In this document: one piece after another, positions 4,001-58,286 of the stretch
Position numbering within the stretch: position 1 is the first letter of the stretch
Layout: every line of letters starts with the position of its first letter
Assembly (NCBI GenBank): GCA_026874595.1
Contig: CM049317.1
Coordinates: 10,512,382-10,576,381, forward strand
Source: Sipunculus nudus
Lineage: Eukaryota; Annelida; Sipuncula; Golfingiida; Sipunculidae
DNA length: 64,000 nucleotides
Reading direction: 5' to 3'
Position numbers and translations under genes: made by a program
The notes under the pieces: generated by a model
What the model saw: only the letters and a program-made list of their open reading frames with translations
Database searches by the model: none
What the model was told of the DNA's origin: nothing

Positions 4001-4342
4001 AATATTTCCAGGAACTCCCTAGATGCTAAGTTTCCATGACCAACTGCCACGATCCTTTTCCATCTAACTTCTAAATGCTCACAGAGTTTAGGTCACGTTA
4101 TTTAGGGTTTTCCAAGTAGATTCGTAGGGTTTTACCTTGATCTTAATTAAATTAAACATTTCTAGGTCAAACTGCTACGATCTATGCCGTCTGACTAATT
4201 GGGTGCTAAAATCAGGTTCTTTCACAAAACTCACAGAATATAGTCACAGTGACCTTATTTGATGTTGCCAAGGAATATTTTCACTGACCTTCCTAGATCC
4301 TAAATTAGAAGTTTTAAAATCCAACTTTAATAAATTGTGCAA

Positions 4343-4405
<63 letters not shown>

Positions 4406-26641: not shown

Positions 26642-26901
26642 TTAAAACCTTTGTATGTATGTACTCACAGCTTCACACAGGGACTGTCCAAACCACCAGT
26701 CCTGTACGTCATCAAATTTGTATCCCTCGTCCTTCCAAAGCTGAATGACAGTTCCGCTTGGCGGGGTTTCCTTTCCAGCGTCACCGAAGTCCTTCTTAGG
26801 CTCACCAGGAGCCCAGTTTGTCCATTCCACCGCTTTGTTGTTCGTCCTCCAGTACCACCGACTACCGTCAGAGGCGCCACTGGTCAACAGATCGCCAGCA
26901 T
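26642..26901 (-). CDS. Lectin gene exon 39, second half of C-type lectin domain and stop
   Basis: WRTNNKAVEWTNWAPGEPKK...VIQLWKDEGYKFDDVQDWWF, GQSLCEA and then VSTYIQRF and TAA. A perfect gtgagt follows GAAGCT (donor at 26668), so splicing to a further exon is possible. It would be phase 0, unlike every other junction, and no downstream exon is seen. The stop is therefore preferred. The canonical second Cys pair of the fold is absent. Confidence 0.75.
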
Positions 26902-29900
26902 CTGTAATTGACCAATCAGACAGATTAGTTTCCTATCGGATCACTGCGTTTACTGCAGTCGGCTTATGCCGCCGAGCTTGCAATGCTAACTCATTTATCC
27001 GTATTATTTTTTATATCTTGCTTAAAAATAAAATTGGTGATTATACAAACATTCATATATGCATCTTAGTTTGTTTTATCTATGATTTATCAGCTATAAT
27101 CTGTTCCACGGTGGGGTGGCCATTGAAAATTGGCGATTATTCTCTTTAACTTAAATAGTATCACACAATTGACAGTTAAGATGATAAGGTGTTCAAATGC
27201 CTAATATGAGATGTAAACCACCTAACAAAACCCAGCATAAATATTCTGTAACCTTTTGATTCTGTTTAATATTTAAGCCAAGTGACATGGCCTCTGTCAT
27301 GGGTTAATAGCCTCACCTCGACAATTACACTTTTTAGAATATTTATGACATTCAACCACCAATCAGTAGCTTTTAAATGTAGTTGTTTAAGCACGTGACA
27401 ACCAATCAGTAGCTTTTAAATGTAGTTGTTTAAGCACGTGACCAGTGACCTTGGCCTCAATCAGACTGGTTGAGATGTTGTAAAAAATATATAATATATA
27501 AAATATTTTCATATATTGATTTTAATGAATTACTAAATTTTTTACAAGGTATGGTTTACTTTCATTTTAGTTAATTAGACCTATGCATTATTCCTCTTTC
27601 CAGTCCATCTTGAGTCCATTATAAGGAAAGCTTTGTCACAAGCTAAACAAACTATAAAGTTAATTATAAAGTATTAACAGAATATTACAAAAAAAGACTC
27701 TAAATATATCCAAGTTTTAGCTCTGCATTGGGAGCTGAATGTAGTAAAAACATGCGAAAACTTACCATAACTGTGAGATAATGATTAGTATTTTTATGAT
27801 AATTCTTTTTAGTAAGGAGATTTTATTTGACTAGGACAAGGACTCGGTTGCCAGAGGACTCGGACTCTAAGACGGTCGATTAGAACTCAAACCTCAAGGA
27901 CTCCGGCTTTCACTTGGACTCGTACTCGGACAGTGTGGACTTGACAACATCACTGATATATGATCAGTTTAACTTCGACCATTTTGGTGACTTCTGGATT
28001 CGTCCTTGGAATACTATGAATGATGAAAGAATGGAACCTTGCTAAAAAAAATCGGCCGAGTCTTTTCGGTTCGGTAATTACATTGACCGATTTCAATTTT
28101 TCCCGCTGGGCCAGAAATTATTTTGACATATCCAAAGATTTTTGCAGCTAATGATTTTGCCGATTTTTTTAACGGCAGATTGAAAACGGGTAAATTGATA
28201 AGTGACCCACAGGCGATGAAGCTCAGTTATTCTTACCGGTCTGTGTTTTCAACCAATTGTAGATGTGAAGTCGCTCGTTCTCGTTCTCCACTCTCGCGAG
28301 ATAAGCTCCCTTCTTGTTGCACTCTGCCATGGCGGTTGTCTGGTTGTAATAATCCGCGATGAAATAGTAACACTTGGAGCCCAACACTTCCCAACTAGGA
28401 TCTGGGCAGGTAATGGCTTAAAAAAAGTATAAATCGTCTGAAACTTCAAAGGAAAGTAAACCTCTATGCAATTTATTCATAGGCTTTCCTCAGAGTGTGA
28501 CCAAGGGCGGGCAGAGAAAATTAGAAGGGGGGGGGGGGGGGAGATCATATAGCGAGGCCCCGAAGAGCCAAGAGGATGTCGCCAATATTCCCCGATACGC
28601 CATAAGCATGGTGCAGAAATTGTTTAAGATTTTTACTGTAAACTTGCAATATGGGATATTATTTTAAATTAAGCTTGTCCTGTATATTAATTGTAAAGAT
28701 TTTTACAAGCATATTAAATAATTCATACAATAAAGGAAATACATGCACTCTGTGTACTTTACTGTATGGTGAGATCGCGAAAATCGATCCCTCGCGAAAC
28801 ACTGATAAAAAATGGAAATCGCGAATGTTAAGACTATAATAAAATAAGATACCCACCTTGATCACACCTTGCTCCTTTGAAACCATCCGCACAACCATTT
28901 GAGCATGCGCCGTCCTCGTGATTACAAGTTCCACCCACGCAGTTTGAGTTACAGTTACTGTTACAATTGTCACCCCACTTGCCACTGGGACATTCTGTAT
29001 AATTAAGTACATGTGCAAATAAGTCACGTGACTAAGTTTTATTAAGGGACAAAAGACATGTCAGCATTGTTGCCTAAAATAAAGTGCTTCGATTTCGTTT
29101 TAAAAAAGATTTTGAATCATATAAAACTAGAGTCAATAATAGGAATATATACTTAAATTTATTTTTATTAATTTTTATTGCATTATCTTTTATTTTTATT
29201 GATATGAAATACAATAAATAAAAGAAAACCCTAAATATATATTATAATATTGCGCGGGTAACAAAATGAGTTCTATCTGTAGCCTGAATTTACGAAGTGG
29301 TTATCCATATAAAACAAATATCATTTTCACACCGGCTCAACCACTACCCTAATAGTACTCAGTTAAGGCGGTAGGCGGCAGAGGTGTAGTTATACGCTTT
29401 GAACAATACCAACAAACACACACATGTTTGCGTGTGTATATTTCTTACTCACGTGTTTCACACGTATCGCCAGTGTAACCAGGGTTACATCCATTGTTAC
29501 ATTTTCCGTCGGCGCCGTTACATGTGCCGCTCTTGCAGTTGGTTGGACAGTTGCTGCCGCAGTTAGCGCCCCATTTTCCAGCAGCACAAGCTAAAAGCAA
29601 ATAAACAGCAATACCATATTAAAAAAAATCATCAGAAGTGTGACATAAATATAGGGACGGATCTCCAACTTTCTCCTAGCCACTCCGCTTTAAATTTTTT
29701 AAAAGTACACCTTTATTTACGATATTAGCCAGGCCTGAGTTCAAAAGTTTGTATCCATTTGCATATGAAAATGTTGAATTTGCATTTAAATGTAGAGCTA
29801 CCAGAAAACATGCATTTTCATTAAAATACAGAGCTGAAAGCTTTAGATTTTTTAAATTTATATGTAATTCTATAGCACTGTTTAAGGAATCAAAAATGAA

Positions 29901-32900
29901 GAAAAAGGCCGCACCAGAAGTCTGATGTTCCGAGTAAAAGCTATACAAGTGGAATGAGCATGATGCCTGCGAAATAAAGTGTACGCAGAGTCTTAGCGCA
30001 TATATGTACGGAGTTGTTGCTTGATTAAGCAAGGTATCGGAAAGCGTAGCTGTCAGAACCTTGTTAATAAGAATATGGTCCAAAGTTACACAAACCAAGA
30101 AGATTACACACTGGAGAAACAACTGTCAGAAGCCTCGAGCGTGCGCTCATTGCAATTAAGACCTGATAGCCCCATTAACTCTATTGTGCGCCTATTGTGC
30201 CGCGGTGTCAGGCGCAGCGAGTCTGCTTGATGTTACTTACGGGGTCCGCTGTAGCTCGCTGAAGTGGAGAGCGATATATCCAGTAACTGAGCGGTAAATC
30301 ACTGGAATTACATTGACCAGAATTATGAAAGCGCAAATGGTTTGTTTTGTCAAAAATTATGAGTTACAAATACATCTAGAGAGGTCTCGTGTAGAGGAAT
30401 CACTGGATCGATTTTGGGATAGATGCGGTCACTCTGCATCAACTTCTGCCGTGATTCATGATGGACGACTGGTAAAAGTAAACCTTACTTTCCCTGAATA
30501 ACTTCGGAATAATAAAAATTTACATCAGTTCCCACACTTCTGACATATATCAATAATTAACCTTGTATTATAGTAAATATTTTGACGTTTATGAACGGAT
30601 AACTTTCATTTTGATAGATAGTGAGCCATCGCCCGCTCTGTCACTGATGGCGTTGTTCCTTATTATCGCCCATGTTTACCGCAGCCGGGAATAAACGAGT
30701 TGTTCCGAAGTCACGCCGAAGGGGGTCTCTCGCGCTGTATCAAATAGCGCCGGGCTTGTCAGCGGCATCTCTGGGTGCCTTTGAGCAGCCAGTTTTATGA
30801 CCCCCGTCAGCAACATTCGACACGGCCAGACTCTCACTTGATACTCCATTCTGTAATTTCCTTGCACAAGCCAATACATTCAAAGTTACACCTACGGGCA
30901 CATTTGGAGCCAGAGTAACCATCCAGGCATCCACTGGAGCACGTGCCGTCTACATGGTTACAGTTGGCTCCGCCGCCCGTGCAGCCACCACATGTACTGG
31001 CGCAGTCCTGGCCATATTTACCGTCAGCGCACTCTGGAGGCGACAAACAAAACCAAATATAAAACAGAATTTTTAGTATACATGTATATGCAAATTACAG
31101 TTAAAACTGGGAAAAAATAAACCTGTCAGGGTTGAATGAAGGCGCGGTCACGCCGACATGAAACGGTAACGTTTAGAGCACAATAGCTCTTTTTTTACCA
31201 CGTCACAATCCTCCAAATATGGTTAGATTATATATCATTATATTCAATATAATAAATTTTCAAAATATGAATAACATTTGTCCCTGTATTTGCACTCGAC
31301 ATCTTTTATCATACTTGCGTTTTATAATTGTTATTGGTATTTGCATTTACATCTTATTTATTTTAAACATTCACACGCGTTGAACCACATTTAAATCCAT
31401 CTTTGTTACACAGCATATAATATATAGTATCAAATTTTGTGATAGGATTGAAGTTTTGGAGAATAATTAGAAAATTCTATTGGCCAAGGCAGAGTACAAT
31501 AAACCACATACCGGTGTCACAGTTGGTGCCCTTGTAGCCTGGAGCACACTTGCCAGGACAAGCGCCGGTACTAATGTCACAGGAGGCGCCACTGGCGCAA
31601 TTCCCGCAGTTGTTGGCGCATCCAGCTCCCCATTTACCAGCAGGGCAGCTTGCAGCTTAAAAAAAATTAATAAATTATAATTTATTTCGGTATTCCTGAA
31701 TATAATATATCTTTATGGTTTTAATATAACGGTATAAGCCTATAAAATATAACATTACTGAAATTTTAACATCATTTTTACAATAATAGTGAAATCGCCG
31801 CATTTTTTTCCTCTCTGTGGAACTGATATGGCACTATTACACGAGCATGCGCACTGCGGGGAACTGTCGTCTGCTGTGTTTAAGTGTGCTGAGCCAGCAT
31901 TGCATGTTCATTTAATGAAACAAGATATACACCAGAGACTCTTGCAGGAATTTCACCAAGCTTTCTTTACTTTTATTATTAGATATAGAAAATTAATATT
32001 TTCTTTTGTGTAGATGCGTCTTACACTTAGTTTCAATTGTTGCCAAAAGATGTCGCTTTAGTGTTTTTGTGGTAAGAACGGTATAGAATAAGTAATATTT
32101 TGCAAGCATGAGCTTGGGAATGTAAACAGAAGGTGTTTCCTTGAAATGAAACACATTTTCATTTTAATGTTTGACACATAAGACAAGTAGTTCCGGCCGT
32201 CACACATTGCCAAAACAGTTTTTTTTAAAGTAGAAACGACCTCTGGCGGAAGGGTGGAGAAAAGGATTATTGGAAACATAAGTTTTGTATTACCGGCTTT
32301 TACTACAGGTACCATGGGAAATACTCAGCATAGGTAAACAAGAATGATAAATTTGTATATGTCATATCTGAGATAATACAAAAATTGATTACTGTCGCAT
32401 TTGTCTCCTGAGAAGGTTCCGGTGCAACCACCAGGCGGACAGAGGCCATCGATTGGGCTACAATCACCCCCTGCGCATGCGCCGCAGGTCTGGCTACATC
32501 CGACGCCCCATGTTCCACCAGGGCAAACTAAAAATTAAAAAATATGAACAGGATGTAAAATTTTGAAATTCTCAATATGAACAAACTGCACAATCTATAG
32601 ACTATCAATTTCAACATACTGCGCAATATATGAATTATTAATTTGAACAGACTGCACAATCTGAATATTATCCATTTGTGGAAACTGCACAATCCGAAGA
32701 TTATCCATATGAACAGGCTGCACAATCTTAAGATTATAGATATTAACAGGCTGCATAGTCTACAGATTTTCAAAGTGAACAAGCAGTACATTTAAGATTA
32801 TCAATAATATTTAAAATGAATAATGTGAGACAAGAGTTGTATACATGCTGGTTCAGAAAAATAAGAAAATGAAGGTAGCTAGGTGTATCGATCTTGTATC

Positions 32901-35900
32901 TGGCCCCATCAAGGATATATTGTTTCCATCCGTGAGCTTGTTTATATGTTGTCTTTTTGTCTGTTTGACTACCAGCAGGATTACGCAAACAATATGGAAC
33001 CGAAAAGCTTCTGATTTTGGCGTGGATCCGCATATAAGGTGGGGGGGGGGGGGGGTGAATTACTGATGTATTGGTTTGGCGGTGGAAAAAACTCACTGTC
33101 CTTCCTGTTACAAACATTTTCATTTCTTTTATACTTGAATGAAATTAATTGAATGGATCTGGTAAATATACATTCTTTTAGTCGCCCGAAGGTAAATATG
33201 AAAATTAGGGATCATCACATTTTATGGATTAAGTTTACCTAAGAGGTTTTTGTCTGACACCAGATCAGAGTTTGAAGTTTGTGTCAAAAATTTTGATATT
33301 TATGGCTTTACCGCAAGATTTATCTGATCTATACAAATCTGACTTTAAACTACTACCGCAACAAGGCAGCATACGCGACGTGGTTCTCTGAGGGACAATA
33401 TTTAAATAGTTCATACTCGTCGTGTTTTCAGTCATTTAACAGCCACGTCAATAAAGGCATGTAATTATATTTTATAATACACATTTCAGGTATTATACAT
33501 ATTTCTTAAAGGTAACTCAAACCGTGTGGCTCATTTCAAACTTACATTGGTCACATTTGCTGCCTGTGTAACCGGCTTTGCACCCTCCGGCAGGACACTC
33601 GCCATTCGTGTTTGCGCATGCGCCTCCAGCACATTCTCCACAAGTCTGGGAGCAACCATCGCCATATTTTCCGGCGGCGCAGGCTGTAATCACAGACAGA
33701 CATTCATATTCATCAAACGTATACATTTTTTTACTTCAGATAGGTAACTTTTCACACTGCTGGTATTTTTTATAATTGTCCAATACCACTGTTGTAAACT
33801 TTATTTATTTTTTATATATTAAAAGGTAGCTCCTCCTTCACCCCTTATTTTTCATAAGGAAATTCTGGAGCACCTGGGATTGGTACCTAGAAATCCTTCC
33901 TTATATAGCTTTACTGAGGAGAAAACTATTTATAGCTTCCATTGTATAATATATATAAATATATATATATAATATACACACACTTTTTTATTAGTATGTG
34001 TAAAATCGAGGAAGACAATGTAAAAGCCGAATCGTTGAAATCTTAGCTGGATAATAAAATATTTCATAATATACTAAACAATTAACAGCAGGTTCTCTTA
34101 GCATAATGTTTTTTCAAGTATACTATAAGGCTAAGCATTTTGGTGTGCATGTATATTTTTCTTGTCAATTTTTTTTATTTTATAGAAAAAGTATATTATA
34201 ATGGTAATGCTCTTGTCAATAATTATCGTGATTTAACCAGCGCTCATACGCCACAGCAAGGAGTTTACAACTCCTTGGTCATAGTTACCTGTTTTGCAGG
34301 TGCTTCCTGTATAACCGGCTTCGCAACCAGCTGGACAGGCTCCGTTTGTGGTGGAACATGCAGCTCCGCTCTTGCAGTTTCCACAGGTGCTGGAGCAGTC
34401 AGCTCCGTAAGTACCAGCAGAACAGGCTGTTTACGTCAATAAAATATCATCAGTGACGTCATAATACATAGAATATTACGGGATCTCGAAATATTTCAAT
34501 ATCTCGAACTATTATTTCTAATATTAGTAACAAATATTTCGAGATATTTCGAAATCGATAATTCGATACACAAAAAAAATTCTATATCCTTATCAAGCCA
34601 CCGTGAATAAACGTAATTGAATCTAATAGTAAGTCATAGATCTTTTGCTGTGTACTTTTCAATTGTGCATACCTCTGCAATTATAAAAATGCTTTCCAAA
34701 AATACTTCGCCTATGGATACATTAATTCCCTACAGTTTCTAGATAATGTTTTCATAATAGAAGCGAACGGTATAATAAATTAATAAAAAAAACGAACAAA
34801 ATATATATTCCTGACATGTACCATGTCATTCCAAATAATTATTTTCCCATGGACTCTTATATTCAACTCAACGGAATATAGATAGCAATAAAACAAAATT
34901 GCGACATATATAGTTATACTTAATACTTGTTTACGACACTGACCTGTGGTACACTGAGACCCGGAGAACCCTGCAGCACAACCGGATGGACAGTTTCCGG
35001 TAGATACATCACAGGCAGCTCCGCTTTTACAGTTTCCACAAGTGCTGGCGCAGCCAACTCCCCAGGTACCAGCAGTACAGCCTGAAATAAAAAGCTGCTA
35101 TGTGTAAAAGTGTATGTACAAAGGAAAGTGACCATTAAATATAAAATGCTGAAGATATACTGTCAAATCTATATAAACAGCCAAGTTATGTATGAGAATT
35201 ATTACAGAAAATTATATAATGTTTGCAAAGTCATACTAGGTCCGATTTTTTAAAAGTATGAACTTTATATGTGTAATTGTTGAAAATCAGTTATTACTCA
35301 TATTCATAAAAAGAATATTTTTTTCCGAGTACATGTATGTGATGGGAACAAAAGTTTCAACTTTAAAACTGCATACATCCATATATAATTTATTACAATT
35401 CAACATTTCCCATTGACATCAGCACTAATTGAGGCCAAATGCACGTTTAAAATCTTACCTGTATCACACTTGGTCCCTGTATAGCCGGCTTGGCATCCTC
35501 CCGCTGGACATACTCCGTTTGTGGCACTGCAGGCACCGCCAGCACACTTGCCGCACGCGCTTGCGCAGTTAGCTCCATAGAAACCAGAAGAACAAGCTGA
35601 GAGGGAAACATATTTATAATTTTAATATTCGTGTTATAACGATTTATTAAGATTATGCCTTTTTTGGATAAACAGACTCGAACATGCAACCTATATGCAG
35701 AGGGTAAACAGAGAGGCAAAAAAGCTACTAAAAGAACTACGTTCAAAAATGTAGTAAAGCAATGGATTTAAATGTGGGTTATATACATGTGGGAAAAGTT
35801 TTCCTCTTAGATATTGAAAAATCTCTTTTGAAGATAGAATGGAATAACTCCGACATTTCCATGATTCTTTCAGTAACACCACCTCCAGACCTAGCGTCTG

Positions 35901-37716
35901 TCTACAGCAGCTGTGACGATTCTGTTTCTCCGGGGCCGAATTGCGTATGAAAACAGGCATCATATTGACATAGATAATCCTTTGCAAAATCCAAAAAGTA
36001 GGTTTAGACCGATAGTGTCATTCGCTCTCATTTTTATAATAAGCGCTGGTTGAGGTCTGGTTTTCAAGGGCAAACATATGATAAAAACTTGGATTTTAAA
36101 TTTTTATTATATCATGTAAAAACATGTCAATAATACGAATATACTTGCCTGTGGTACATCTAGATCCAGAGAATCCGGCCAGGCACCCGCCAGCTGGACA
36201 CGACCCGTCAACGACGTTACAGACCCCGGCGGCACACTGACCGCACGCTGACCCGCAGTTGTCTCCCCAGAACCCGGCAGAACAGGCTGTAAACAACAAA
36301 GGACAAAACATTATATCCGAACACTGAACCTCAGGTATCTAGTCGGCAATATATTCATGTCAATACTATGTAATGTTTTTGTCCGAAGGACAGTGATATT
36401 AATTTATACCCTACAAGCCTGACAGCGTGGTTTTTGTGCTAATATTTTTAATAACGGGCACAGAATTTGCAAAGATGCCGACGTAATTTAATGAAAAAAA
36501 AATTTGCAACAAACCTGTTACATATTTCCCAAATCGAAATTTACACACAAATATTAATAAAAACGGCGAACCTTTTATTGTCGGACAGAAGGAATCTTTC
36601 ACAATATTCACTAGATTGTCCTTGCAGCACAAACATTTTATCCCACTTATGCCAGTCAAGGTTGCACGTACAAGATTTTTTGAGGAGCGGTCAAGCTCAG
36701 TAGAACTTAAGAGAAAACCTTGAATGAGTCATTATTTTTGTTGGGAGGGGGGGGGGGGATGGTGGTAAAAAGTAGTTTGAAAGCCTTTGAAAAGTTTTGC
36801 CGCAGGTTAAAAAGGGACCAAAACCCGACAAAAAAATCTTCTGCCACGGTATAAAAAGGTGTACCCGCAATGCGGATGTCTAATTGTTGTTAGACTACCT
36901 TGGTTCTGGAGAGCTTTATAGAATATATATATCAAAATAACCTTTAGTTTAAAGGAAATTTTTGTTTTTCGTCTGAAAATTAAAAAAGTGGAAGTGACAA
37001 TTGTACAAAATGAATCCATATTATTATTTTGTTTTGTTCCCTGCCTCTTTGTTCCCTCCCATTTATCATGTATATAATAGTAATTTTAATGTCAATTAAT
37101 GTTAAATGTCAATTCTGTAAGTGTCAAATTCAGAAGACGCTCAGCTTAAGTCCGCTAGTAAATAGGCGTTCACTTATAAAGTGTCGATAAGCACGGCCTA
37201 GATATTGCGATAAGCAGACTCAAACTCATCGTTTTCACACATATCAGTTACTGCTGCTTTCTGATCAAAACAGTCTGTGAACAGAGATTCCGATCAGCGG
37301 TCATGCAGGCCATACTTTTGTCAAAAAAAAAATTTCAACCATAGTCGAAAAGAAATTTATGATTTAATTAATATCAAAAATGAATAAAATGTAACCCTGC
37401 GTTTAGATTTGGTATTATTGTACCCGACATCATAATAAGGAATGTTCCCGTCACCAATACGGACTGGATCTCGATACCTGTGGTACATTGGACTCCGGTG
37501 TACCCTGCAGCACACCCAGCAGGGCAGTTTCCGGTTCCGCCGTCGCACGCAGCACCGTTTTTACAGTTTCCGCAGGTATTTACGCAGCCAGCTCCCCATG
37601 TTCCGGCAGAACAAGCTGAAATGTAAAACATCAGCTGTGGTATATCATGAAAACGACGGCACTACAAGTAAATTTGAATAAGAGAAAACAGCAAACTTGT
37701 CAGACTCGATACTTTG

Positions 37717-37764
<48 letters not shown>

Positions 37765-40700
37765 GTGTGTGTGTGTGTGTGTCTCCTAAAACCACCTTCC
37801 GGATATCAAAACTATTGGCAAAAGCATTACCATTATTAAATACTTTTTCTATACGATAAAAACAAGACAAAAAATATATATACAAACCGAAACACAAAGT
37901 TTACTTAAATACGCTTTTTGCTAAGATGAATATTTTATTATCCAGCTAAGAATTTCACCATTTGACTATGACATTTTCTTTCCTGTAATTTTATTGTTAC
38001 AGTAATGAAATAAGTATTAACATATATATTGTTTGGTCATTTATCCATAACAAAAAAAAGAGAACGAAACACAAAGCATATGTCTATACTACACATTTTC
38101 TTCAGTGTCTCTACAAATATGTAATTTCATTCTCTTCCAACACAACTGATTAAGCTTTATTTTTTAAGTTATCGTTTTTGAAAAACAAACTTTTTCTAGA
38201 TAGGGCTATTTATTCATTTTCAATTAAAATTAGATTCTATAAAACTTCTTGTGCGATAACATCATATGCAAAAATGTTCTCGTGGCAGTTTTGCAAGCAG
38301 TTATTGTAATGTTCATGTTAAGATTGTTCTTCTGTACAAATATAGAATATTGACAATAAAAAACTTACCTGTTTTGCAAGTGGAACCGGAAAAGCCATCT
38401 GCGCATCCACTTGGGCATGCGCCGTTGATTGTGCTGCAGGTGGCACCGTTCTTGCAGTTACCACATGTACTGGCGCAATTAACACCATAAAAGCCAGCAC
38501 TACAAGCTGTTATTAAAACAGATCAAAATATAATTATGAGACTATTTGTTAATTATGGCATAAATGGACCTATGTCACTGTTTTTTTTTCTTTTACTTTT
38601 GAGTACGAAATTGTGTGCATTTTACTCAAGTTTGAATACAGATGAAGCGAATTCAGGAATTTGTCCAATATGATTTTTTGTTATCATATTCTTGTACATT
38701 CTGTATTATTTGAAAAGGAGTCACAAAGCTATATACGTGTAATTATAAATTGAAAACAACCTAGAACACTGTGAAATATGTGGGTATGTAGACATTGTTA
38801 AAAAATACAATGATAGGGAAATTTATAGTAGCCTGTCTTTAAGATAATCTTAATCAGTTTCCCTCGCTCGAATAAAGATATATATTTTATATATATATAA
38901 AACTTGCCTGTGGTACAAAGCACGCCTGTAAAACCAGCGGCACAGCCCCCTGTACATTGTCCGTCAGTTGTGCGACATGCGGCGCCACCAGCGCAACTTC
39001 CACAAGTAGAAGCACACCCAAAGCCCCAAGTACCAGCCGTACAGCCTGGAAATGATTAGTGTGTAAGATCATATGCCTTTCACATGAAAATTAAAAAAAA
39101 AAAAAAAAACAGTTAAAACTCTTTCCGATCGAAATGTGGTGGCCACGCACTAGCTTAACTTGAGTTCAATGAACAGTTATTGTCATGAATTTTGATTAGA
39201 CGGAACACTTTCAATATGAACCGAGGCCAGCCTTTGTGCTTATGTCCTTGTTTAGCTCTTTGTAATTATTTTATTTTACTGCTGATTCAATATTTTCGGT
39301 TAATACACGCGGCTTTTAAAGCACTTCATAAATTTAAATGCCTGGTATTTTTTAATTTTGAAACTAAACGTGAGAGAAGTATCAAACTTAAAACACGGGC
39401 ATGCAAAGAAAATCTTTTAAATGAGAAGGACTAAAGAATACAATCACTTAAAAAAGCACAGGGATATATAAAACAAAACATACCTTGAATTAAGAATCTC
39501 AGTTAGTTTAGTTGAATGATAAAGCATTTCAAATTTAATATGACCCAAGACGTCACCTGAACCTCCATGATATAATCTTAATGTTACAATTCGGATCATC
39601 AGACAAAGGCATAGTTCGGAGCAAGAGAAAAGTCTGATAATATATGCAATGAAACGCAGATATTAAAAAAAATCAAGGCGATCCTGTGCCACAATCAGTA
39701 TATGAGAAAAATCAATGCGATAACTCTACAGAAACTTAACATACCAAAATGGCACGTAAAAATAGTTTTTATAATACATTTCCGAATTACCAAATTAAGC
39801 GAGTAATGTTACTTACGTTATTGAAATGTATGTTTAGATGAAATACAACACAAGCTCGTGTGAAAATGTTATAAAGGTTGCAGTATATTTATTCATCTTA
39901 TTTATACATATATTTTACCAGGATGGCCCATTCAGCATTTTCCGCTGTTTTTCGATGGGGTCCTGTATATGTTATAACAGGAGTTATCAGGTACAAATAA
40001 AGTCTAACCTGTGTCACACTTGGTTCCAATGTATCCGGCGAGACAACCTCCGGCTGGACACACTCCGGTAGACGTGCTGCACGCGCCACCAGCACACTGG
40101 CCGCACGGGCTGGCGCAGTTAGCTCCATAGAAACCAGAAGAGCATGCTGGGAAGGAAAGTAGATTTGCATATATCATATAATTATATAATTTACATATTT
40201 CATATAATCATATGATTTACATATATATTATATCCATCTCCATTAGGAGTTCTGTTCGCAAAATGCAGAAATCTCTATATATCCAAACTCTAAGCGCAGT
40301 CTAATTCATGCCACAATCACTGCTTCTTTAAATGATGAAGACTGTATGTAATTGATATTTAAAATAAAACAATCCTTTATTTTTTCCACAGAGGGCAAAG
40401 TTATACCAAAATATGAATAATTTAGAACTTATGAAAATTCCGCACGCAATGGGCAGAAATCGAAGTTGGGAATATTTTAGTCGATAAAAGTGACCTCTGT
40501 TTATTTTTTCAGTATTTTAGGACTGATTATGTGACCCAATAATCTTTACCAAAGACCTGCAAACTATAATTTTATATTAATCAACTTAGATCAAATTATG
40601 CTGAATGAACCCGATACGACATCAAAACAGCCGAAACAGTCACATTTTTGGAACACTCAGATAACCCCATACACTGATATCATATAGCTCGCATCTTATT

Positions 40701-43700
40701 TCAAACACAACCTGACCGTTTAATAACATTACTTTTATTAGGTCGCAGTAATGCAAGGTTAAGGGTTTTGACAGAACTATACCTGTTGTACACTTGGATC
40801 CAGTGAATCCTGCGAGACAGACGCCGCCCGGGCAGGATCCGTCCACGATGTTACAGGAGCCGGAAGCACATTGACCGCAGGCTGACGCGCAGCTCTCTCC
40901 CCAGAAACCAGCAGAACACCCTGAAAGGAAACGTAGGAGAGATCTGATTTTTGTTACTGGTGAATTATGTGTTTTTGCTGGACGTAGTTTATAGTATTCA
41001 ACGGGTAGAAAGTTTAACAGGGAGTTATAAATATTTTTCAAGACGAAATGAAATAAAGGTATTCTTAAAACTGAGAGTTAATTATACCATGAGAGTGGAA
41101 AATTATTCGTTCATAATTAGCTTAAATCACCAAAATTTTACTTATAATAGTCGTATACAGTTTGACAGATTAAAAGATATTAGCTGTATGGACAATGTAT
41201 ACTACATATAAATTCAACATTTACTGATATTACCAATTCACACAAGTTCGCCTAATAACTTGTGTCGTAAAGAAAACGTAAAGTTATAGAAAAATCTACG
41301 TTATTTGCCATATTTATTCCTTAATGGTGAACTAGATGTTTATGTCAAATCTACGAAAACTCACCGGATGCCCAACTTTTGTATTCTACTGGCGCTGCGA
41401 TACGTTTTGATTTGAAGAAATTCGATGATTTTTTTCCAATTCATCATGAAAATGACTAAATTAAGGCGTTTAAGATTAATTTTCATTTGCAATGGTAAAA
41501 GTGAGAAGGAAACAAATGTAAACAGTTTTGAACAGTTTGTTTGACTTTTGTCCTCTGATAATAAACAATAAATTTGACCTCTGACCTGTAGTACACTGGA
41601 CTCCTGTGTAACCTGGAGCACATCCGGCGGGGCAGTTTCCGGTCGTTGAGCTACAGGCGGCGCCACTCTTACAGTTACCGCACGTGTTGACGCAACCGGC
41701 ACCCCAGGTTCCGGCACTACAAGCTAATCAGTGAACAAATATTGTCATACATTGCAGTATTCATTCAATCCCCTAGCTCTTAAGACATGCATGCATTTAT
41801 TTTAAACAAATTATTTTAAATTAAATATAGAAAGTAGCTAATATATAGTTATATAGAAAACGCCTTCTCCCTTACAAAAGATGTTTAACACGTATCGTCT
41901 GTATCTGTTCAGAACATTCCAGCTGATTAGAAAAATTCAATAATTTAATAAACATAAACAACACTAATGAGTAGAACGTTTCATATGTTTATTCTGAAAA
42001 TCACGTCAAGGTCTAAAGCTTGGTTTTGTTATTGCCTACATGTCAAAGGTCTACCTGCATCTACGAGACCTCAGAAAATACTCACGTTAAAAAATAGAAA
42101 AGTTAATCTTTAACAAAACCATACAATTATGATAACATGGAATAAAATCAGGGCCAAGGGGTTCCCAGCATTTCAATAAAACGAAATTCCCACATTTTCC
42201 CTCAGTTTTATTAAATGAAATTTTAAAATTTCAGGACAATATCTTAACCTATTTCAAGTTTAACACATTTTTAACTTTTCATGACCTCCTGATAACACAG
42301 AGATAAAGAGGGAGATCCACACCATGAAGCCACCAAAAACAACATTCAGTGTATGGACTGCTTGGGATTGCAAGAAAATATAACAGATTGGCGACTTGCT
42401 TTTTCAGGCAAATTAAATTACTTAATTGTTCCCTGGTTTTGAGCATTTCCCCAAGTTCCCCTGAATGAAAAGGGAGAAATTCATATTTCAAGATCTAAAA
42501 AGACTGTGAATCCTGACATATGGATACCGTTTCAAATGGGTTATAAAAAATGGCATTTTGAACTTCTTATCACGTTAAACCATAGTATGGATCTATATCA
42601 ATAAAGTTTAAACTTACCTGTTGTACATGTTGGACCAAAGTAACCATCTGCGCAGCCGCTTGGGCATGCGCCGTTCGAGACACTGCAGGTGGCGCCATTT
42701 TTGCAGTTTCCGCATCTATTAACACAGTTTACACCATAGAATCCGGCGCTGCAAGCTGAAATCAATACAAGAAGAGATTAACATAAACGTAGATTAAAAT
42801 TAAATGAAAATGAAAGACAAAAATTGCCAAACCTTGTAAATAGCATCAATATATAGTTCTGTATATTGGATTTAATATGATTATAGTATCAGCTGTTCCT
42901 AATTAACTGTTAGGAAAAGTTGTTCACACTCTTATTAATAGTATAGAGGCATAATTTTAGTGCTCGCTAAAAGCTCGAAGATTGAAGCAGTGCCTCGGTT
43001 GATTATCAACGCCTTCTAGCGTACACAATAGAATGAAAATAAACTGCCAGAATGAAATTCGGATAAGCGGCGAGGTTGAATTGTTTCTTCGATGAACACG
43101 AGATGGCGCTGACACTCAGCTGTGCGTTTTGTTCTCATTATTAACGAGATTTGTGCTTTAAGAAAAGATTGCACAGAGATAGCTGATAGTTACATCTAAG
43201 TATTGTGATTATTGAAAGAACTGGTACCTGTTGTACAGAGAGCACCCGAGTATCCAGCAGAACACCCTCCTGTACATATTCCGTCTGTTGTCTGACAGGG
43301 GGCGCCGTGAGCGCAGTTGCCACAAGTAGAGGCGCACCCAACACCCCAGGTTCCACCCGTGCAACCTGAAAATGAGGTCACGTCAAGATGGTGTGAGCAT
43401 GTATTAAGGAGTTAGTTTCATACATAAAGCAATGGCGTGATATGATTGGCTGTTGTGATGCTATTGGTTCTCTTGGGAAATTAAAAATGCAGTAAAATAT
43501 GAACTTTTAAGAATTGATAAGATCCGGTTGATATTTACATACTATACTACCGTGAGCAGTTTGTGGAGATTATCCAAGATAAAATATGATTCAATTATAT
43601 GACTGAATACCCCTGTCTCATGCTACATGCCCTTTCGATTAAAGCTTGAACATAGAAAGCTGTACACTTTCACTGGTAAGGGGGATTTCCTGTTTGGCTT

Positions 43701-46700
43701 AATAGAATAGAATGTATACTACAAGTCCATGCACATGTATCTACCTGCATCAGAAATTAATTCGTAATATTATATTTTTAAATACATCATTTATAATTCT
43801 TAATATATCTTTAAACATCATTTAAAATTTTAAAGCTGGACAGTTATTTGTTTGACTATCGCTTTCCTTACACATACTATATAATGGGTACGGACGAAAG
43901 TCTTGAGGATGTCAGAGACAACTGTGACGTCATTAAGTGACGTCATCTCACCTGTGTCGCACTTAGACCCTGTGTATCCAGCTAGACAACCGCCAGCCGG
44001 ACAAGTACCGGTTGTCGCACTACAGGCGCCACCAGCACACTTTCCGCATGCGCTTGCGCAGTTAGAGCCATAAAAACCAGAAGTACAGGCTATAAAAAAA
44101 TGAAATAAATTAATATATTTTTATATGTCGTGACTGGTATATAATAATCAGCATTTTTAACTATATATACCGTGGAACCTCTATAGGATCGACAACCAAG
44201 CAGGTTGCACGTGATAGGTGGAATAAAGAGGTTAGAGAGATTAAGGTTGCGTTTTGGCGAGGTTTTGTGTTTTTCAAGGTAAAATGACCCTGAAGCGAAT
44301 GGGTTTTAACCAGTTTGCACTCAATGCCCAATTACCCTCATGTTTGTTCCGGGGCCACGTCCATTTATGTAAAGCCCCGGAACTTTGAGATAATTTGTTG
44401 GTAAATATCAATGGTGGGTTTAATAAAATTCAATCACATGTGTGGTAAATTATCTGGGCCATACTAAAGGTTACCAGATGGACATATAGATGGCTGGACG
44501 TAAGAATCCCGCCGATACAAATAACGACCCGTCTATGACACAGGTATATAAAAATCTAATTATTAAAGTAGGTCCTATAATTTAGGTGATGATCCTGGAT
44601 TACACATTTTATAAATTTCCTGTGTTAAATGTCATTTTTGTGTGTACTGTACTTGACAATTCCGTTTCCCCCATGCATTTCAGGATATCTTACTCGTATA
44701 TTCTTTTAAGATTTTTTTCGATAAATACTTGTTTCACATCCTTGCATAGTTATTACTTGGATTTCAACCACAACAGTTGTAATCATTTCATGGTCAGTAA
44801 TATTAGCAGTAAGAATGGTCTAGCAGCTGCATTCGCTTGCTTTACTCAACGTAGTATCTTATTTGTGGGTTTATAAGTAAATACTAAATATTGTTCTATA
44901 TTTCGCATCAATTCAATAATTTATTACTCATAGTATTATCAGAATTATCAATAGAAATGGTAATTATGGCATCATTATAAAAGGTAATACTAGTAGTTAA
45001 AATAATCAAAGTAGTATTTACCTGTGGTACACTGAGATCCGGAGAATCCGGCTTGACACAGGCCCCCTGCGCATGAGCCGGTCACAATATTACAGGCTCC
45101 AGACAGACAGTTACCGCACGTAGAGGCGCAGTTGTCACCATACAAACCAGCCGAACAAGCTGTATAGAAAAATATTAATGACATGTCTGATTAACACAGT
45201 GACTGAGTAAAAAGAAAAGCTACGATTTTACAATATATCTCTACACATTCACAAGTGTTTTACATCTCATAGCTCTATGTCTGGAAATTTATTATATGTT
45301 GGAAATTGCTTGAGGTGAATGAATTAAATATCAATGTTAAATAAACGTCTTTTTTTATATATATTCTCACTTCCTGTATTAGCTTTTCATTTCGACGTTT
45401 GAATGTTTCACTGTGTATTTATATTTAACTTCTTTGATCAGTTCAATAGGAAGAGGCCTAGTGCCTGAACTACTATCACTAGTTTTCCCAAAACGAGAAG
45501 ACTTTAAAAGTATTATTTTGAAAATTAGGAACATGTTTGAGCAAGGTTAATTGAATGTTCTTACTCTGTGTACATGCCGTGCCTGTGTAACCAGGGTTAC
45601 AGCCAGACGGGCAGGTACCGGTGATACTGTTACAGGTGGCGCCCTTACAGTTCCCGCACACGTTAGAGCATCCAACACCCCATGTTCCGGCAGTACAGGC
45701 TGAAAGAGCAAGCAGGTCACTTAAAAAATTATTGACGTGGTCAATTTTCCCACGAGCATGCGCACAACGTGTCATGGTCGTTTGCAGTGTTCGGATCAAG
45801 TGAGGTTTTGTAGAGTGAAACTAGATATATACCAGAGGTTTTGACACAACATCCGCGAGTAATATTAGATACACATTATTAGCTTTCTTAATTCGCCAAA
45901 TATAGTCTACATTTCTAATGCAGCGGTTATACTGTCTAACAGCTCCTTTGTTCAGCAAGTGTTTCGTGGTCTCGATACCAGGGCGGACAGAGAGCCACGA
46001 ATCAGAGTGTCGCGGGCGGGTTTATGCGATACCACGCCCTCATTGGTCTAATTTCAATTGATTGCTCTGGCCCAACCATGGTGGTATAACCAGTAGAAGC
46101 TTGTTATACGTTCGTATCGAATATTGGGTAATTTGCAATAGGAAATTCGTAAAATATATTTAAATTGCTGTGTGAATTTTCAATTTGATACATTTCTGTT
46201 AGCCTTTGGAAGTCCATAGACTTATCAAATGATGTTGCTCGAAAGAATAAGGTTTATGAAAAAAATCTATGTAACTTGCAAGCATTGACTGCTTACCTTG
46301 CAGACAAGTTGAGCCAGTGTAACCAGCCTGGCAGCCACTTGGGCATGCGCCTGTTGTGGCGCTACAGGGGGCGCCTCCGGCGCACTTTCCGCAGGCTGAA
46401 GAACAACCGCTGCCCCAGAAACCGGTCTGGCACGCTGCAGGAGAAAGAAATATGTTCCAAAAGCTGCATAACAGTAAAAGGAATAAGCTAAACAAGTTAC
46501 TAAATACATGAAGCACAAAAGTATCTAGTCATAAAACTTCACAACATTATTGCGTACAAAAGTTGATCCTGTTATATCTTAAAAAAGAAAACGTACTAGT
46601 ATCAGAAAAGCAACTAGCACACCTGAGAATTTACAGATATAAGTCACGTGACTAATTATGACGTCATTTTTGACTCGCCTGTTTTACAAGTGGCTCCAGA

Positions 46701-49700
46701 GTATCCTGGAGCACATCCGCCAGGGCAGGAGCCATCAGTTCGTGAACAAGCCACGCCGCCATTACAGAAACCGCAAGTACTAGCGCAGCCGATACCCCAA
46801 GTGCCTCCGACGCAGCCTGAAGATAAAGAATACGTGTACAGCTCAATGTTATCCCTCCAAATGATAATAGTGAAATCTCAACAGAAAACATTTAACATGA
46901 AGTTATGGATGACTTCTTGTCACTTCTACTTCACAAGAACAATATATAGGGTTATAAAACAATAAAAAAAACTGCCATGTGGTTATTTACCTCCTCATTC
47001 ACCGGACAAATATTCCCTCAACGATCCTTTGTAGTCTGCTGTTGGCACAGTACATTATATAAGGATGTGAATTACCATAATATTGTATACTATTCCGTCA
47101 TTATTATGTCATTTAGATGTGGTATTCCTCAAATGTGAGCAATGCAGACGTGACAGGCTGTTGTTCCGGCAATCTGAGTAGATCGGGTGAAATATTAGCA
47201 TATGGTTTTTCGATTCTGGTGAGGTTCTGTCTATGTAGAGACATTCGGTTTCCAATCCAGTGACAAAAGCACAATGCTCTTCCCGCTAATAACTAAATCT
47301 AACATGATCGTTTTGAACATAATATATTAAATTTATATTCGTTATTATTATTTTTCTCAGTTATTGAAGAAAGTAAACAGATGTAGCACAAATGATAATT
47401 AATTTTTTACCATGACTTTTTTCTAAACTGTACAAAGGGGACTTGTTTATTTAAGAGTCAACAGAGAGGGGTTTTCAACGATTGTTCTCGAAAACTGGCT
47501 CATTGGCTAGTTTGTGACACGTGACCTACTTGTGATACAGAGGGAGCCAGTGTAGCCTGCGGCACAGCCGCCGGTACAGGAACCGTCAGTGACAGAGCAA
47601 GTGGTTCCGCCTGCACAACTTCCGCATTTGGATGCACATCCGGTTCCCCAAGTGCCAAAGGAGCAAGCTGAAAGATAAATCACGTGACAAAATAAGACCG
47701 ACCTGACATTAAAGGAACAAAGCGAATAAAGACTTCTTTCGTATCTTTTTATTAATTTATTTACACAATCTTTAACATAAACAAACACAACATCATTTGT
47801 CGAAATTTAATAGAAAGGAAAGGCTTCAGCATCAAGTGAAAACTTTATATGGTCAGTTTTTTTTATACTGGGGATAAGAAATCTAAATATAACATTTAAA
47901 AATTAAAAAAGATGTAATCATGACATAGTCGCCAGTGTTTGCCAAGAACCGTGACCTTGCCCTTGGACCGATCAAGGCCAAAAACAATAGGCTCCGAGGG
48001 ATACCGATTTAACACTTGACCTATAAGTTTCAAAGCGGCTGATGCAAAATTGCGACCTGTAGCGTGCGGACAAACAGACAAACAAACAAACAAACAAACA
48101 GACACGACGATTAGCCTATAGTCGCCAGACCTAGGCTGGCGACTATAATAATCCATGGGTTGTATTAGTATTGTGAATATATAGAACATGCATATTCGAA
48201 TAAAATAAAACAAGTTTTAATTATTAAAAATCTATGCTCTCATGTATAATAAGATAAGGGTAGTGAAATAATCTATGGCAGGTTAATTTTTTTTTATAGA
48301 TTAAAGAAGATAGGAATCCAAGGATCATTAACAGTCACAATAAATCCATGTTATAACTGATGATGCACCTCTGGATCTTTATTTGTCACGACACTCCTCT
48401 GTGGCGACTCCTCAGAAATGCCCGTTGTCGTCTTGTACTGGCGGGAATGATGTGTCCTAAGGGGGGCCTTTTTCCATATTATTTCCGTAAATCTTGAGAA
48501 AATGAACATAGTTTTGCTAAAGAGCCATTGCAGAGTCATTTATCAGAAATTATGCTAAGTTGTGTTCAGTTGTTTAATCAAACTAAAATGGTCTTACTGT
48601 GCAAAATTATGAAAGTGTCATATTCTTGTATTGATAAAATACAAAAACGTTTCACTCACGTATGAGACAGTAGGTTCCCTGGTATCCGGCCTGACACCCG
48701 GCGGGACAGGCGCCACTCACGCTGTCACACACGGCGCCGCTCTCACATTTACCACACTGAAAGCCGCAGTTCTGTCCCCAGGTACCAGACAAGCAGGCTG
48801 AAAGAAAATGTTACAGGGAATAATAGTATATTTCAAATATTAAAGGTATGTTACCCCATATGTAAATGATGACTTTAGCACTGCTGCATAAATATAATAA
48901 CACATATACCTAAATGACTTAACAAATTCATCTAGTATTTGTCTTTTAAACAAATCGTCATTCAATTAATTTGTAATATTTTAAATGATATTAATGTATT
49001 ATCGTTAGAAACATTTTTCTTGCTTTGCATCTCAAACTAATCTTTTGCTACCTTTCACGCTAAAATAAATTCTCTCCCTTGAATAGTTTCTCAACAAAAT
49101 TTGATATCATGTATAAATACTAGAGGGCGCTGGTAAACACTTTGTGAGAGATCAGTTCTACATATGATAAATCAGATAATACTTATAATATGCCCTCATT
49201 GAGATATCCAATATCACACAGGGTTAATGTCTCCTTACAACTGATGAATAACTGTGATATTAATAGTCATTTTTCTTTTGGACTAAAGCATTATAAGCAT
49301 AGTTACTACTAAACAAAGTTCTTTAATACAATATTCATTTACTTTATTGAATATATTACTTGGTCTTCCAAGATTCTACTTTTTATGTTGTCATGATTAA
49401 GATCGAGTGGTTCAGCAAATAAGCTGCCGTATGAATAACCCAGGAATACATGCACTAGAGAAGTGATCACATAATCTTTCGTTAGAGTCTACTATTCTTA
49501 AAATGGTGTGCACGGTATAATCTGTGGACTACGCTAAACTTTGTTTAATTAAATTATTTGCACCTCATAATTACTCCTGCAAAATATGCGATAGTGCTGT
49601 GCTGGAAAACAAAACACGTGCATGATTTAAACAAATAAAGCATACTTGCTTTACTCACTCTGGAGACATTGGAAACCCCTGTAACCGGCAGCACATCCGG

Positions 49701-52700
49701 TCAGGCAACTTCCGGTTGTTACGTCACAGGCAGCGCCACCTGCACATTTACCGCAAGTCTGCGAGCATCCCACTCCCCAGAAACCGGCAGAACAGCCTGG
49801 AAACAACGATTTCAAGCAAGTAATACAAGGATTAATACATAGAAACACATAACATATATAGTTACAGAGAAAAGGATCACAAATGACCCAAGAATGTGTA
49901 CTTTCTCATGCTATCAGCTTATTTTGGTTGTATTCAAAAGTGACCCAGCAAAACTATCCCGGCACACGGACTTACTATCCCAGTTCACCTGTTTGTGCGT
50001 TTTCCATAACAAGACTGTGTGACTATCGAATCTATCCCTTGCTTCACAACTCTTTTTATGTAAGAAACATTAACAAAGAAACTCAGAAGCATCAGCGGTT
50101 TGAAACTAGATAAACTTCGCCACTGATCGAGACCGGAGCAAGCTTATTTGCATCTACGTAAAGGATAAAGCAAAAGTTTTAATGCCAAAAATTGGCGGAA
50201 ACCATAATGTTTTAAGAAGAAACACTATATTTCATGTTTTTATCATTCCTGGTATGTGAATAGGTCCCTTTAAAAGAGGTAAATTAAAAAAACAAATTTA
50301 TTATAATGCTGAATGATTTAGGATTATAAAGAAATAACATTTATGATATGTAATTTTTGTAAACATTATAAAGTAATGCATTTAAATGAATTATTACCCA
50401 CTGATGAACAAATAATGTAAACATGAAAGAGTAGATCTCCCTATTAACACACACATAAGCAGACTGGTGAGGAAAATTATGATATTTTGGCGCAGATAAT
50501 AAACAGTGCGAAGTGTATAATGGGATGTTTGAGTTTTTTAATGTGAGTGAGAAAACAGCGGAGGGAGGAGAAGAGTTAGTGTAATAATAATAATGATAAT
50601 AATAATCATCATCATAATAAGTAGGTAAATAATTCGTACATGAGTAGATCCGGAAGAAAAAGAGAAAGGACAACAGGGAAGAATAGAGAATTTAGTAATG
50701 ATCACCTGCAAAAAAAAATTAGATAAAGAAGGCAGAGAGAAACAAAAGCTGGCGAAGGGAATAAAGAATGAAGTGGTGATGAATAAGAAAGAGGTCACAC
50801 TTACTGGTAGTACAGTAAGTTCCTGAGTATCCGTTAAGGCAGCCATCTTTACAGAGTCCGGTCGCGGCATCGCAAGAACCACTTCTGCACTTGCCACAAG
50901 TCTTGGTACAACCAGCGCCGTAAAACCCGACAGGACAGGCTTGAAAAGAAAAGAAAACATTAAAATGCAACCAGCGATGTAAAACCCAGCAGGACAGGCT
51001 GGAAACGAATCAAATGACATAATACAGCCGATGTCGTTATAGCCTATGACCAAGAGGGGGAGAGACAGACAGGAGCATTGAACTTCTTCTAAAAATTTGC
51101 GGTTACAAGCAATTCAAACAAAAAAAATTGTGATAAGCCTCATGAGATGGCAAAGATTAAGGAGAGAACGACAATGGTCAAAAGTCCCTATAACAGGGTA
51201 CAGATTTTCAACCATCATTATAACAGCCGTAGTATTATTAGTTCGGAAAAGAATATATGTTTGTGATACGAAAGATGCGCAACTAAACCACTGAGTTGGC
51301 ATAGATAAAAAACAAATACAAGAAGACGTCTGACCTGTCTGACAGTTAGTTCCGGAGAAACCAGCAGCACATCCACCGGGGCACGACCCAGTAGAGGGGT
51401 CGCAGGTAGCGCCATCTGCGCATTTGCATGTGAAAGTACATCCAGCGCCAAAGGTGCCCGCAGCGCAAGCTGAAACACACAATATCAATCGTAAGTTTGT
51501 TCCTTTGATTATTTTTTTAGTTTCTCAATTTTTAATTGTTATAAGCAAGCAAACGTGTTTTGACACGATCGAAAGTATTAGTTTAGAACAAGGACTTAAA
51601 AAAGTGGCAAAATTAGCTCCATACATTAAACTCGTTTGCCAATACATTCTTAATATTCTTTTTTTGCGTATAATTCATAGTATCCACTATTGAGTTAACA
51701 TATTCAAAGATATATGAAATATATATATATATATCCTAGTCCAAGTCCGAGATCAGGCTACTCGTATCCTAGTCCAAGTCCGAGTCCAGGCTACTCGTAT
51801 CCTAGTCCAAGTCCGAGATCAGGCTACTCGTATCCTAGTCCAAGTCCGAGTCCGGCTACTCGTATCCTAGTTCAAGTCCGAGATCAGGCTACTCGTATCC
51901 TAGTCCAAGTCCGAGATCAGGCTACTCGTATCCTAGTCCAAGTCCGAGATCAGGCTACTCGTATCCTAGTCCAAGTCCGAGTCCGGCTACTCGTATCCTA
52001 GTTCAAGTCCGAGATCAGGCTACTCGTATCCTAGTCCAAGTCCGAGATCAGGCTACTCGTATCCTAGTCCAAGTCCGAGTCCGGCTACTCGTATCCTAGT
52101 TCAAGTCCGAGATCAGGCTACTCGTATCCTAGTCCAAGTCCGAGATCAGGCTACTCGTATCCTAGTCCAAGTCCGAGTCCAGGCTACTCGTATCCTAGTC
52201 CAAGTCCGAGTCCAGGCTACTCGTATCCTAGTCCAAGTCCGAGATCAGGCTACTCGTATCCTAGTCCAAGTCCGAGATCAGGCTACTCGTATCCTAGTCC
52301 AAGTCCGAGTCCGGCTACTCGTATCCTAGTCCAAGTCCGAGATCAGGCTACTCGTATCCTAGTCCAAGTCCGAGTCCAGGCTACTCGTATCCTAGTCCAA
52401 GTCCGAGATCAGGCTACTCGTATCCTAGTCCAAGTCCGAGTCCGGCTACTCGTATCCTAGTTCAAGTCCGAGATCAGGCTACTCGTATCCTAGACCAAGT
52501 CCGAGATCAGGCTACTCGTATCCTAGTCCAAGTCCGAGTCCAGGCTACTCGTATCCTAGTCCAAGTCCGAGATCAGGCTACTCGTATCCTAGTCCAAGTC
52601 CGAGTCCGGCTACTCGTATCCTAGTTCAAGTCCGAGATCAGGCTACTCGTATCCTAGACCAAGTCCGAGATCAGGCTACTCGTATCCTAGTCCAAGTCCG

Positions 52701-55700: not shown

Positions 55701-55839
55701 TTCAGGTACTCCCCGTTACCCGCCTGCTCCGTGTAGGTGGCGCACAGCGCGTTGTTCTGGAAGGTCTTGTTGTTACCGACACGCACGTCAAAGTTGTTCA
55801 GACGCTCTGGCACACCGGGCCCTAGATCAAAATGATATG

Positions 55840-55890
<51 letters not shown>

Positions 55891-56046
55891 AGAGATTATC
55901 AATTTTTTTACTTTGTTCTGCATGTAAGCTCTTGATGAACACTTGTTCTTGTATGTTAGGTTTAAGGTGGAATAGATGTGGTGATATTTACGTGTAGTAT
56001 ATAAATTTATTAATACAATATATGTATAAAACTATATATATAATTT

Positions 56047-56108
<62 letters not shown>

Positions 56109-58180: not shown

Positions 58181-58229
<49 letters not shown>

Positions 58230-58242
58230 TAATTACAACAAC

Positions 58243-58286
<44 letters not shown>

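Follow-up and report, generated by a model that had tools for sequence, protein, structure and literature searches.

Fifteen consecutive EGF-like module exons of a minus-strand gene of the sipunculan annelid Sipunculus nudus repeat the same order of five module types, here called a-b-c-d-e, three times over. The gene lies in a stretch of 64,000 nucleotides (assembly GCA_026874595.1, contig CM049317.1, positions 10,512,382 to 10,576,381 of the forward strand), which we analysed as a whole and refer to below as the window. That the repetition goes back to the duplication of five-exon blocks is, in our judgment, nearly certain. The account that best explains the data as a whole, and which we consider fairly probable, is that an old EGF-like array underwent two tandem duplications of five whole exons, the second of which was shifted relative to the first.

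By pattern search, the minus strand has 32 exons that each encode one EGF-like module; we number them in the order of transcription, labelling exons 12-26 as a1-e1, a2-e2 and a3-e3. These fifteen occupy exactly 45699 down to 34289. An earlier note on this DNA, drawn up from the letters alone, numbered them 17-31, having counted five further exons before them; the threefold a-b-c-d-e order that it described is present at the same coordinates, and its literal motifs, compared by eye on the alignment, fit 11 of the 15 exons (all three of a, and two of three each of b, c, d and e) but miss b3, c3, d3 and e3. The acceptor AG stands two bases 5′ of the first cysteine codon in 30 of the 32 module exons; in exons 1 and 29 the in-frame AG acceptor is more distant from that codon, by an additional 3 and 6 bases, respectively. 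Donors, looked for in matching phase only, are at the expected place in all 32 (29 GT and three GC, the latter in exons 10, 20 and 23 at minus-strand positions 46679, 38908 and 36149). We read the module exons as predicted phase 1 at both ends, so that any whole number of them could be copied without a frameshift.

The five-exon period is evident in both alphabets. Over exons 12-26 the mean identity at lag 5 is 0.768 in amino acids and 0.735 in nucleotides, whereas permuted orders average 0.601 and 0.615; in 20,000 permutations the observed values were never reached at lag 5, and at any lag from 1 to 10 they were reached by four of 20,000 in amino acids and by none in nucleotides. Lag 10 comes next (0.701 and 0.675), with the other lags below 10 at 0.56-0.61 and 0.59-0.60. 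As the earlier note had asserted, equal positions are more alike than neighbours: amino-acid identity is 74.6% for same-position pairs (n=15), 55.6% for neighbours (n=14) and 0.577 for all unlike-position pairs (n=90, neighbours included), with neighbours falling below random pairs in amino-acid similarity (p = 0.007), though not significantly so in nucleotides (p = 0.22). Among the 31 other modules, the nearest to a given exon is one at the same position in another block in 13 of 15 cases in either alphabet, and a neighbouring exon in none. The exceptions in amino acids are e3, tied between e2 and a2, and d3, nearest to a3; in nucleotides they are d3 (nearest a3) and e3 (nearest c3), with a3 counted as same-position though tied between a2 and d3. 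The amino-acid periodicity ends sharply at exons 12 and 26: the ten lag-5 pairs inside these limits score 0.69-0.89 and the 11 listed outside 0.45-0.67, while the nucleotide ranges (0.64-0.82 inside, 0.51-0.65 outside) barely overlap.

The silent sites point in the same direction. At the 15 invariant residues, codons agree in 56.4% of same-position comparisons against 43.8% in other pairs, a level attained by one of 20,000 permutations; as these codons follow position, common descent, and not protein selection alone, is implied. When all codons for a shared amino acid are counted, the excess shrinks (0.502 against 0.449; 505 of 20,000 permutations), as would be expected of nearly saturated silent sites. 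The permutations, the invariant-residue codons and, in part, the trees thus agree with the earlier note that the array grew by five-exon segments and not by single exons.

The trees rest on 135 nucleotide and 45 amino-acid columns, and leave most of their forks unresolved. When only the other positions are considered, a branch separates each of groups a, b and c in both trees; group e is set apart in this way by the protein tree (93/96), whereas the nucleotide tree requires two changes for it, and neither tree recovers group d. Counted against all rows, holding a1-a3 or e1-e3 together in the nucleotide tree costs 6.1 and 4.0 log-likelihood units (approximately unbiased (AU) test, p 0.37 and 0.37), and holding a1-a3 plus d3 together costs 0.18. 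The clustering by position that the earlier note anticipated therefore holds for b and c, is weak for a in nucleotides, is confined to the protein tree for e and is absent for d. Clustering of adjacent exons, which that note had named as contrary to its proposal, was not seen: three forced neighbour pairs cost 33-40 units (AU p 0.03, 0.06 and 0.07), and a fourth, d3 with e3, costs 13.4 (AU p 0.19).

The blocks are not related in the same way throughout their length. The closest blocks are 2 and 3 for a, b and c, and 1 and 2 for d and e, with simple bootstraps of 0.98 for (2,3) in a+b+c and 0.984 for (1,2) in d+e. Growth by five-exon segments stands, but three copies of one abcde block do not describe the array best, as the sister relationship switches inside the block. 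A clock-free four-point analysis, with an outgroup set that left out modules 1, 2, d3 and e3, gives (2,3) for a+b+c with bootstraps of 0.98 in amino acids, 0.88 in nucleotides and 0.95 at codon positions 1+2, and (1,2) for d+e with 0.988, 0.999 and 1.0. The best lag-5 run of five exons is 15-19 against 20-24 in both alphabets, with bootstrap shares of 0.47 in amino acids and 0.72 in nucleotides; the in-register runs starting at exons 12 or 17 obtain 0.001 and 0.085 in amino acids, and 0.034 and 0.029 in nucleotides. We further compared six registers by trees and simulations on modules 4-29 of the 32, k being the switch point, such that k = 3 places the switch after c. The sister signs over a-e are + + + - - in amino acids and nucleotides alike, and k = 3 is the best of the six, the share of 500 simulations departing as far being 0.81 in amino acids and 0.88 in nucleotides. 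These comparisons of sequence lead us to favour, somewhat, a second duplication that was shifted out of register by three exons and had d-e-a-b-c as its unit.

Under this reading, a first duplication would have generated two blocks, (abcde)(abcde), and a second would have copied d-e-a-b-c in the middle of the ten-exon array, with its breakpoints best placed in the c-to-d introns. The resulting array would be a1 b1 c1 [d1 e1 a2 b2 c2][d2 e2 a3 b3 c3] d3 e3. A ten-exon array of two blocks could pair one block out of step, and a crossover in a c-to-d intron would then yield the fifteen-exon order. Later divergence would have nearly randomised the introns and silent sites, with d3 and e3 drifting from their type, and each round, judging from the domain order, would have added ~225 residues to the stalk that separates the F-type lectin domains from the lectin-like domain at the C terminus. 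Whether the agent was unequal crossing-over rather than another mechanism of tandem duplication we judge to be evenly balanced, as a replication-based tandem duplication could give the same 15-exon product and the breakpoints are not recoverable.

Several results weigh against this two-step, shifted history. In the nucleotide tree, group a has a support of 6/78 and forms a single branch in 16% of 200 bootstrap trees, and forcing d1-d3 into one group lowers the log-likelihood by 21.7 units (AU p 0.145), which makes the ancestry of d3 as a d doubtful. The amino-acid four-point bootstrap for position c is split between (1,3) at 0.51 and (2,3) at 0.43, and the joint amino-acid signal is reached in 2% of simulations even under k = 3. 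An omnibus simulation test does not reject k = 0, 1 or 2 (0.16-0.62 in amino acids, 0.33-0.52 in nucleotides), nor k = 4 in amino acids (0.10). AU tests leave k = 0, 1 and 3 standing and reject k = 2, 4 and 5 only in nucleotides with d constrained. In likelihood, k = 0 is slightly above k = 3 in nucleotides and slightly below it in amino acids, and k = 2 has the best amino-acid likelihood when d is constrained. The switch is not seen in the silent codons: at the invariant residues, the codons of the pairs a1-a2 and b1-b2 agree at 0.80 against 0.67 for a2-a3 and b2-b3, and those of d1-d2 at 0.53 against 0.60 for d2-d3; over all codons for the same amino acid, a1-a2 agree at 0.67 and a2-a3 at 0.46. 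The invariant-residue codons of c and e go in the direction expected from the register switch. Finally, apart from a TA-repeat match, there is no intron homology between the copies.

The absence of intron homology is to be expected, since the block copies are old, and does not exclude a block origin. By the method of Nei and Gojobori (NG86), synonymous divergence (dS) is 0.90-2.36 in 13 of the 15 same-position pairs and undefined in two, with non-synonymous divergence (dN) of 0.07-0.32; among the a, b and c copies dN is 0.07-0.27, with dS of at least 0.9. Local alignment of the 15 introns following exons 12-26, in all 105 pairs, gave a mean score of 24.9 forward and 24.8 in the reversed control. 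Each of the 15 same-position intron pairs was also compared with 400 order-1 random sequences. The lowest value that this test allows (p 0.0025) was attained by e2/e3, through the TA-repeat match, which scores 52 forward and 50 reversed; the p of 0.01 for a2/a3 lost significance on correction, and the other 13 pairs gave p of at least 0.057. The within-position intron homology that the earlier note had expected in a dot plot is thus missing, and the introns as they now stand give no measure of how long an exchanged segment was. Its unequal exchange of 3-3.4-kb segments therefore goes beyond what the present sequence can show, in mechanism and in length. The period itself, measured from start to start, is 3,976 and 4,108 bp; by exon coordinates the blocks themselves, without the intron that separates them, measure 3,082, 3,355 and 3,327 bp, which is how the figure of 3-3.4 kb arose.

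The closest competitor, unlikely in our estimate though stronger than the other alternatives, would have three abcde copies in register, the last step being the copying of a whole block (1 to 2, or 2 to 3). It is the simplest description of the exon order, the invariant-residue codons of a and b favour a pairing of blocks 1 and 2, and with these two blocks as sisters the model is rejected neither by AU tests (p 0.06-0.60 over four settings) nor by the omnibus simulation (0.16 in amino acids, 0.33 in nucleotides). Against it stand the change of sister signs within the block and a directed test on constrained trees, in which simulations with (1,2) at all positions attain the a, b, c signal in 0.7% (amino acids) and 3.3% (nucleotides) of 300, and those with (2,3) at all positions attain the d, e signal in 0 of 300. 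The AU test also rejects the latter arrangement in nucleotides when d is constrained (p 0.004); when d is free (p 0.065), and in amino acids (p 0.054 and 0.133), it does not.

An improbable alternative to the shifted duplication is that block duplication was followed by gene conversion between modules, leaving d3 and e3 a-type or mixed and making the register shift only apparent. The similarity of d3 to a3 (76% in nucleotides), a resemblance by eye of its last 30 bases to b1 and the somewhat similar silent sites of neighbours would be in keeping with this, but the switch in a, b and c is independent of d3 and e3. Of seven mosaic tests chosen by eye, that of d3 (a against b1) gave p ~0.001 and that of e3 (e against d3) 0.005-0.017; of the remainder, one gave 0.02-0.03 and four 0.24-0.53. 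We dropped d3 and e3 as candidate mosaic exons: in a scan of 15,576 triples of modules 4-29 with exact p values, none was significant after correction, the best having p 8.8e-6 (corrected 0.14), with 2.9e-4 the best for d3 and 1.3e-3 for e3.

More speculative still is the idea that the five-module block is a functional super-repeat of five distinct EGF faces conserved by position, with the low dN among the a, b and c copies in mind, and was duplicated whole to lengthen a rod between two kinds of sugar-binding domain, shifted exchange continuing to alter the number of blocks in present-day populations; we give it little credence.

That single exons were duplicated, and that selection for five module types at fixed places imposed the period, is very improbable: EGF repeats usually resemble their neighbour most, which PMC1553488 reads as duplication of one domain at a time, and outside exons 12-26 the similarity of neighbours does exceed chance slightly in nucleotides (p 0.04 in modules 3-11 and 0.05 in 27-32) and less clearly in amino acids (p 0.06 and 0.37). 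Within the fifteen exons, however, it is position that the invariant-residue codons track, the amino acids of adjacent exons are less similar than those of pairs drawn at random, and holding neighbours together in the tree is costly in three of four cases. Within exons 12-26 the silent codons of neighbours are somewhat alike (p 0.012), a likeness that is only suggestive, ranking 10 of 120 when positions are permuted jointly within blocks. In these modules, neighbours thus share silent codons slightly above chance although their amino acids are less alike than those of random pairs.

The gene probably encodes a secreted lectin. Its likely order is one EGF module and one F-type lectin domain, the same pair again, a run of 30 EGF modules and, last, a C-type-lectin-like domain. 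An F5/8C-type (F-type lectin) domain follows each of modules 1 and 2 and is in each case spread over two exons. Both pass the Pfam cut-offs (PF22633, E 1.7e-12 and 1.6e-17; PF00754 also passes with the domains joined), and the second matches FBP32 at E 3.2e-36; by these matches both are members of the F-type lectin family, with predicted sugar binding. Two exons 3′ of module 32 form a weakly supported C-type-lectin-like domain, for which no Pfam C-type lectin match was obtained; in the PDB its matches are weak and mostly C-type lectin domains (among the best 60 of 69 matches), with a best E of 1.4e-4. The region downstream of module 32 has no hydrophobic stretch above threshold, and a search of its minus strand by simple patterns revealed neither kinase nor phosphatase motifs. 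From the order of the domains, the EGF array would form a long stalk between lectin domains.

Eight cysteines are invariant in the 26 modules aligned (of 32). The Pfam EGF models gave no match at cut-off in any of the 10 modules scanned (of 32), and a structure model of a single module (predicted local distance difference test (pLDDT) 83.8; predicted template modelling score (pTM) 0.49) has weak fold matches, with a best E of 0.08 and none below 0.001, SCARF1, netrin and Tie2 being among the top ones. In sequence, the best PDB match of five joined modules is Tie2 (E 2.6e-7), with SCARF1 at E 0.006. Unlike SCARF1, Tie2, the laminin-type proteins and netrin, the present array has 30 consecutive modules and is flanked by lectin domains on both sides. 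F5/8C-like domains are shared with the fucolectins, such as FBP32; here they are joined to a long EGF array and a C-type-lectin-like end. Other combinations are noted in a review (PMC5712786), namely F-type with C-type lectin domains in Hydra, and F-type lectin with CCP and EGF-like domains in Nematostella. Judged by titles and the beginnings of abstracts, the literature retrieved contained no description of this gene or of a five-exon EGF block, and a scan of viral contigs with one 96-residue frame found no relatives.

Duplication of several domains at a time is already known in repeat proteins, where autocorrelation of module similarity has detected it in the middle of arrays; seven-domain units in nebulin and a peak at five in cadherins are instances of such multi-domain tandem duplication, and in nebulin the exon block repeats along with the domain block (Bjorklund, Ekman and Elofsson 2006, PMC1553488). 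The Sipunculus array is like these in that several modules were copied at once in mid-array. It differs from them in having five single-module phase 1-1 exons as its unit, and from the EGF repeats described in that paper in that neighbours inside the fifteen exons are less alike than random in amino acids. A unit of five is thus mildly unusual for EGF repeats, which the same paper reports to grow mostly by single modules; here, we have what appears to be a record of two multi-exon duplications. If they were indeed out of register, as they appear, they offer a readable case of one duplication setting up the next. Moreover, at near-saturated silent sites, position-specific residues and a faint codon signal still hold this history, whereas the introns retain none of it.

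Table. Positions in the window of the EGF module exons and lectin-related domains, with the putative last duplicated unit marked
Feature	Position	Strand	Remarks
EGF module exons 1-11	46297..60924	-	part of the same array but not of the five-exon period; modules 1 and 2 are followed by F-type lectin exons
EGF module exon 12 (a1)	45565..45699	-	
EGF module exon 13 (b1)	45022..45159	-	
EGF module exon 14 (c1)	43952..44089	-	
EGF module exon 15 (d1)	43228..43365	-	first exon of putative last duplicated unit d-e-a-b-c
EGF module exon 16 (e1)	42618..42755	-	
EGF module exon 17 (a2)	41586..41723	-	
EGF module exon 18 (b2)	40783..40920	-	
EGF module exon 19 (c2)	40009..40146	-	closes first copy of putative unit
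EGF module exon 20 (d2)	38908..39045	-	opens second copy of putative unit; GC donor
EGF module exon 21 (e2)	38369..38506	-	
EGF module exon 22 (a3)	37478..37615	-	
EGF module exon 23 (b3)	36149..36286	-	GC donor
EGF module exon 24 (c3)	35459..35596	-	closes second copy of putative unit
EGF module exon 25 (d3)	34944..35081	-	nearest to a3, not d1/d2
EGF module exon 26 (e3)	34289..34426	-	weakly e-type
EGF module exons 27-32	28857..33683	-	outside the five-exon periodicity
F-type lectin domain 1, N half (F5/8C-like)	60170..60394	-	ends approximate
F-type lectin domain 1, C half	59060..59300	-	ends approximate
F-type lectin domain 2, N half	56400..56590	-	ends approximate
F-type lectin domain 2, C half	55585..55820	-	ends approximate
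C-type-lectin-like domain, N half	28226..28417	-	weak
C-type-lectin-like domain, C half	26645..26902	-	weak; ends approximate

Elsewhere in the window, the intron between modules 4 and 5 contains a minisatellite (51732-53253) of 33-bp units in ~46 copies, with a 164-bp higher-order unit and long open frames on the plus strand. Exons of two acyl-CoA dehydrogenase genes lie in opposite orientation at 9333-19999 (plus strand) and 782-6513 (minus strand), with four of the six pieces scanned passing the Pfam cut-off, and the two are apparently an inverted pair of paralogs. Between acyl-CoA dehydrogenase exons, at 14809-15070, there is a GC-rich 16-bp tandem repeat of ~16 copies.

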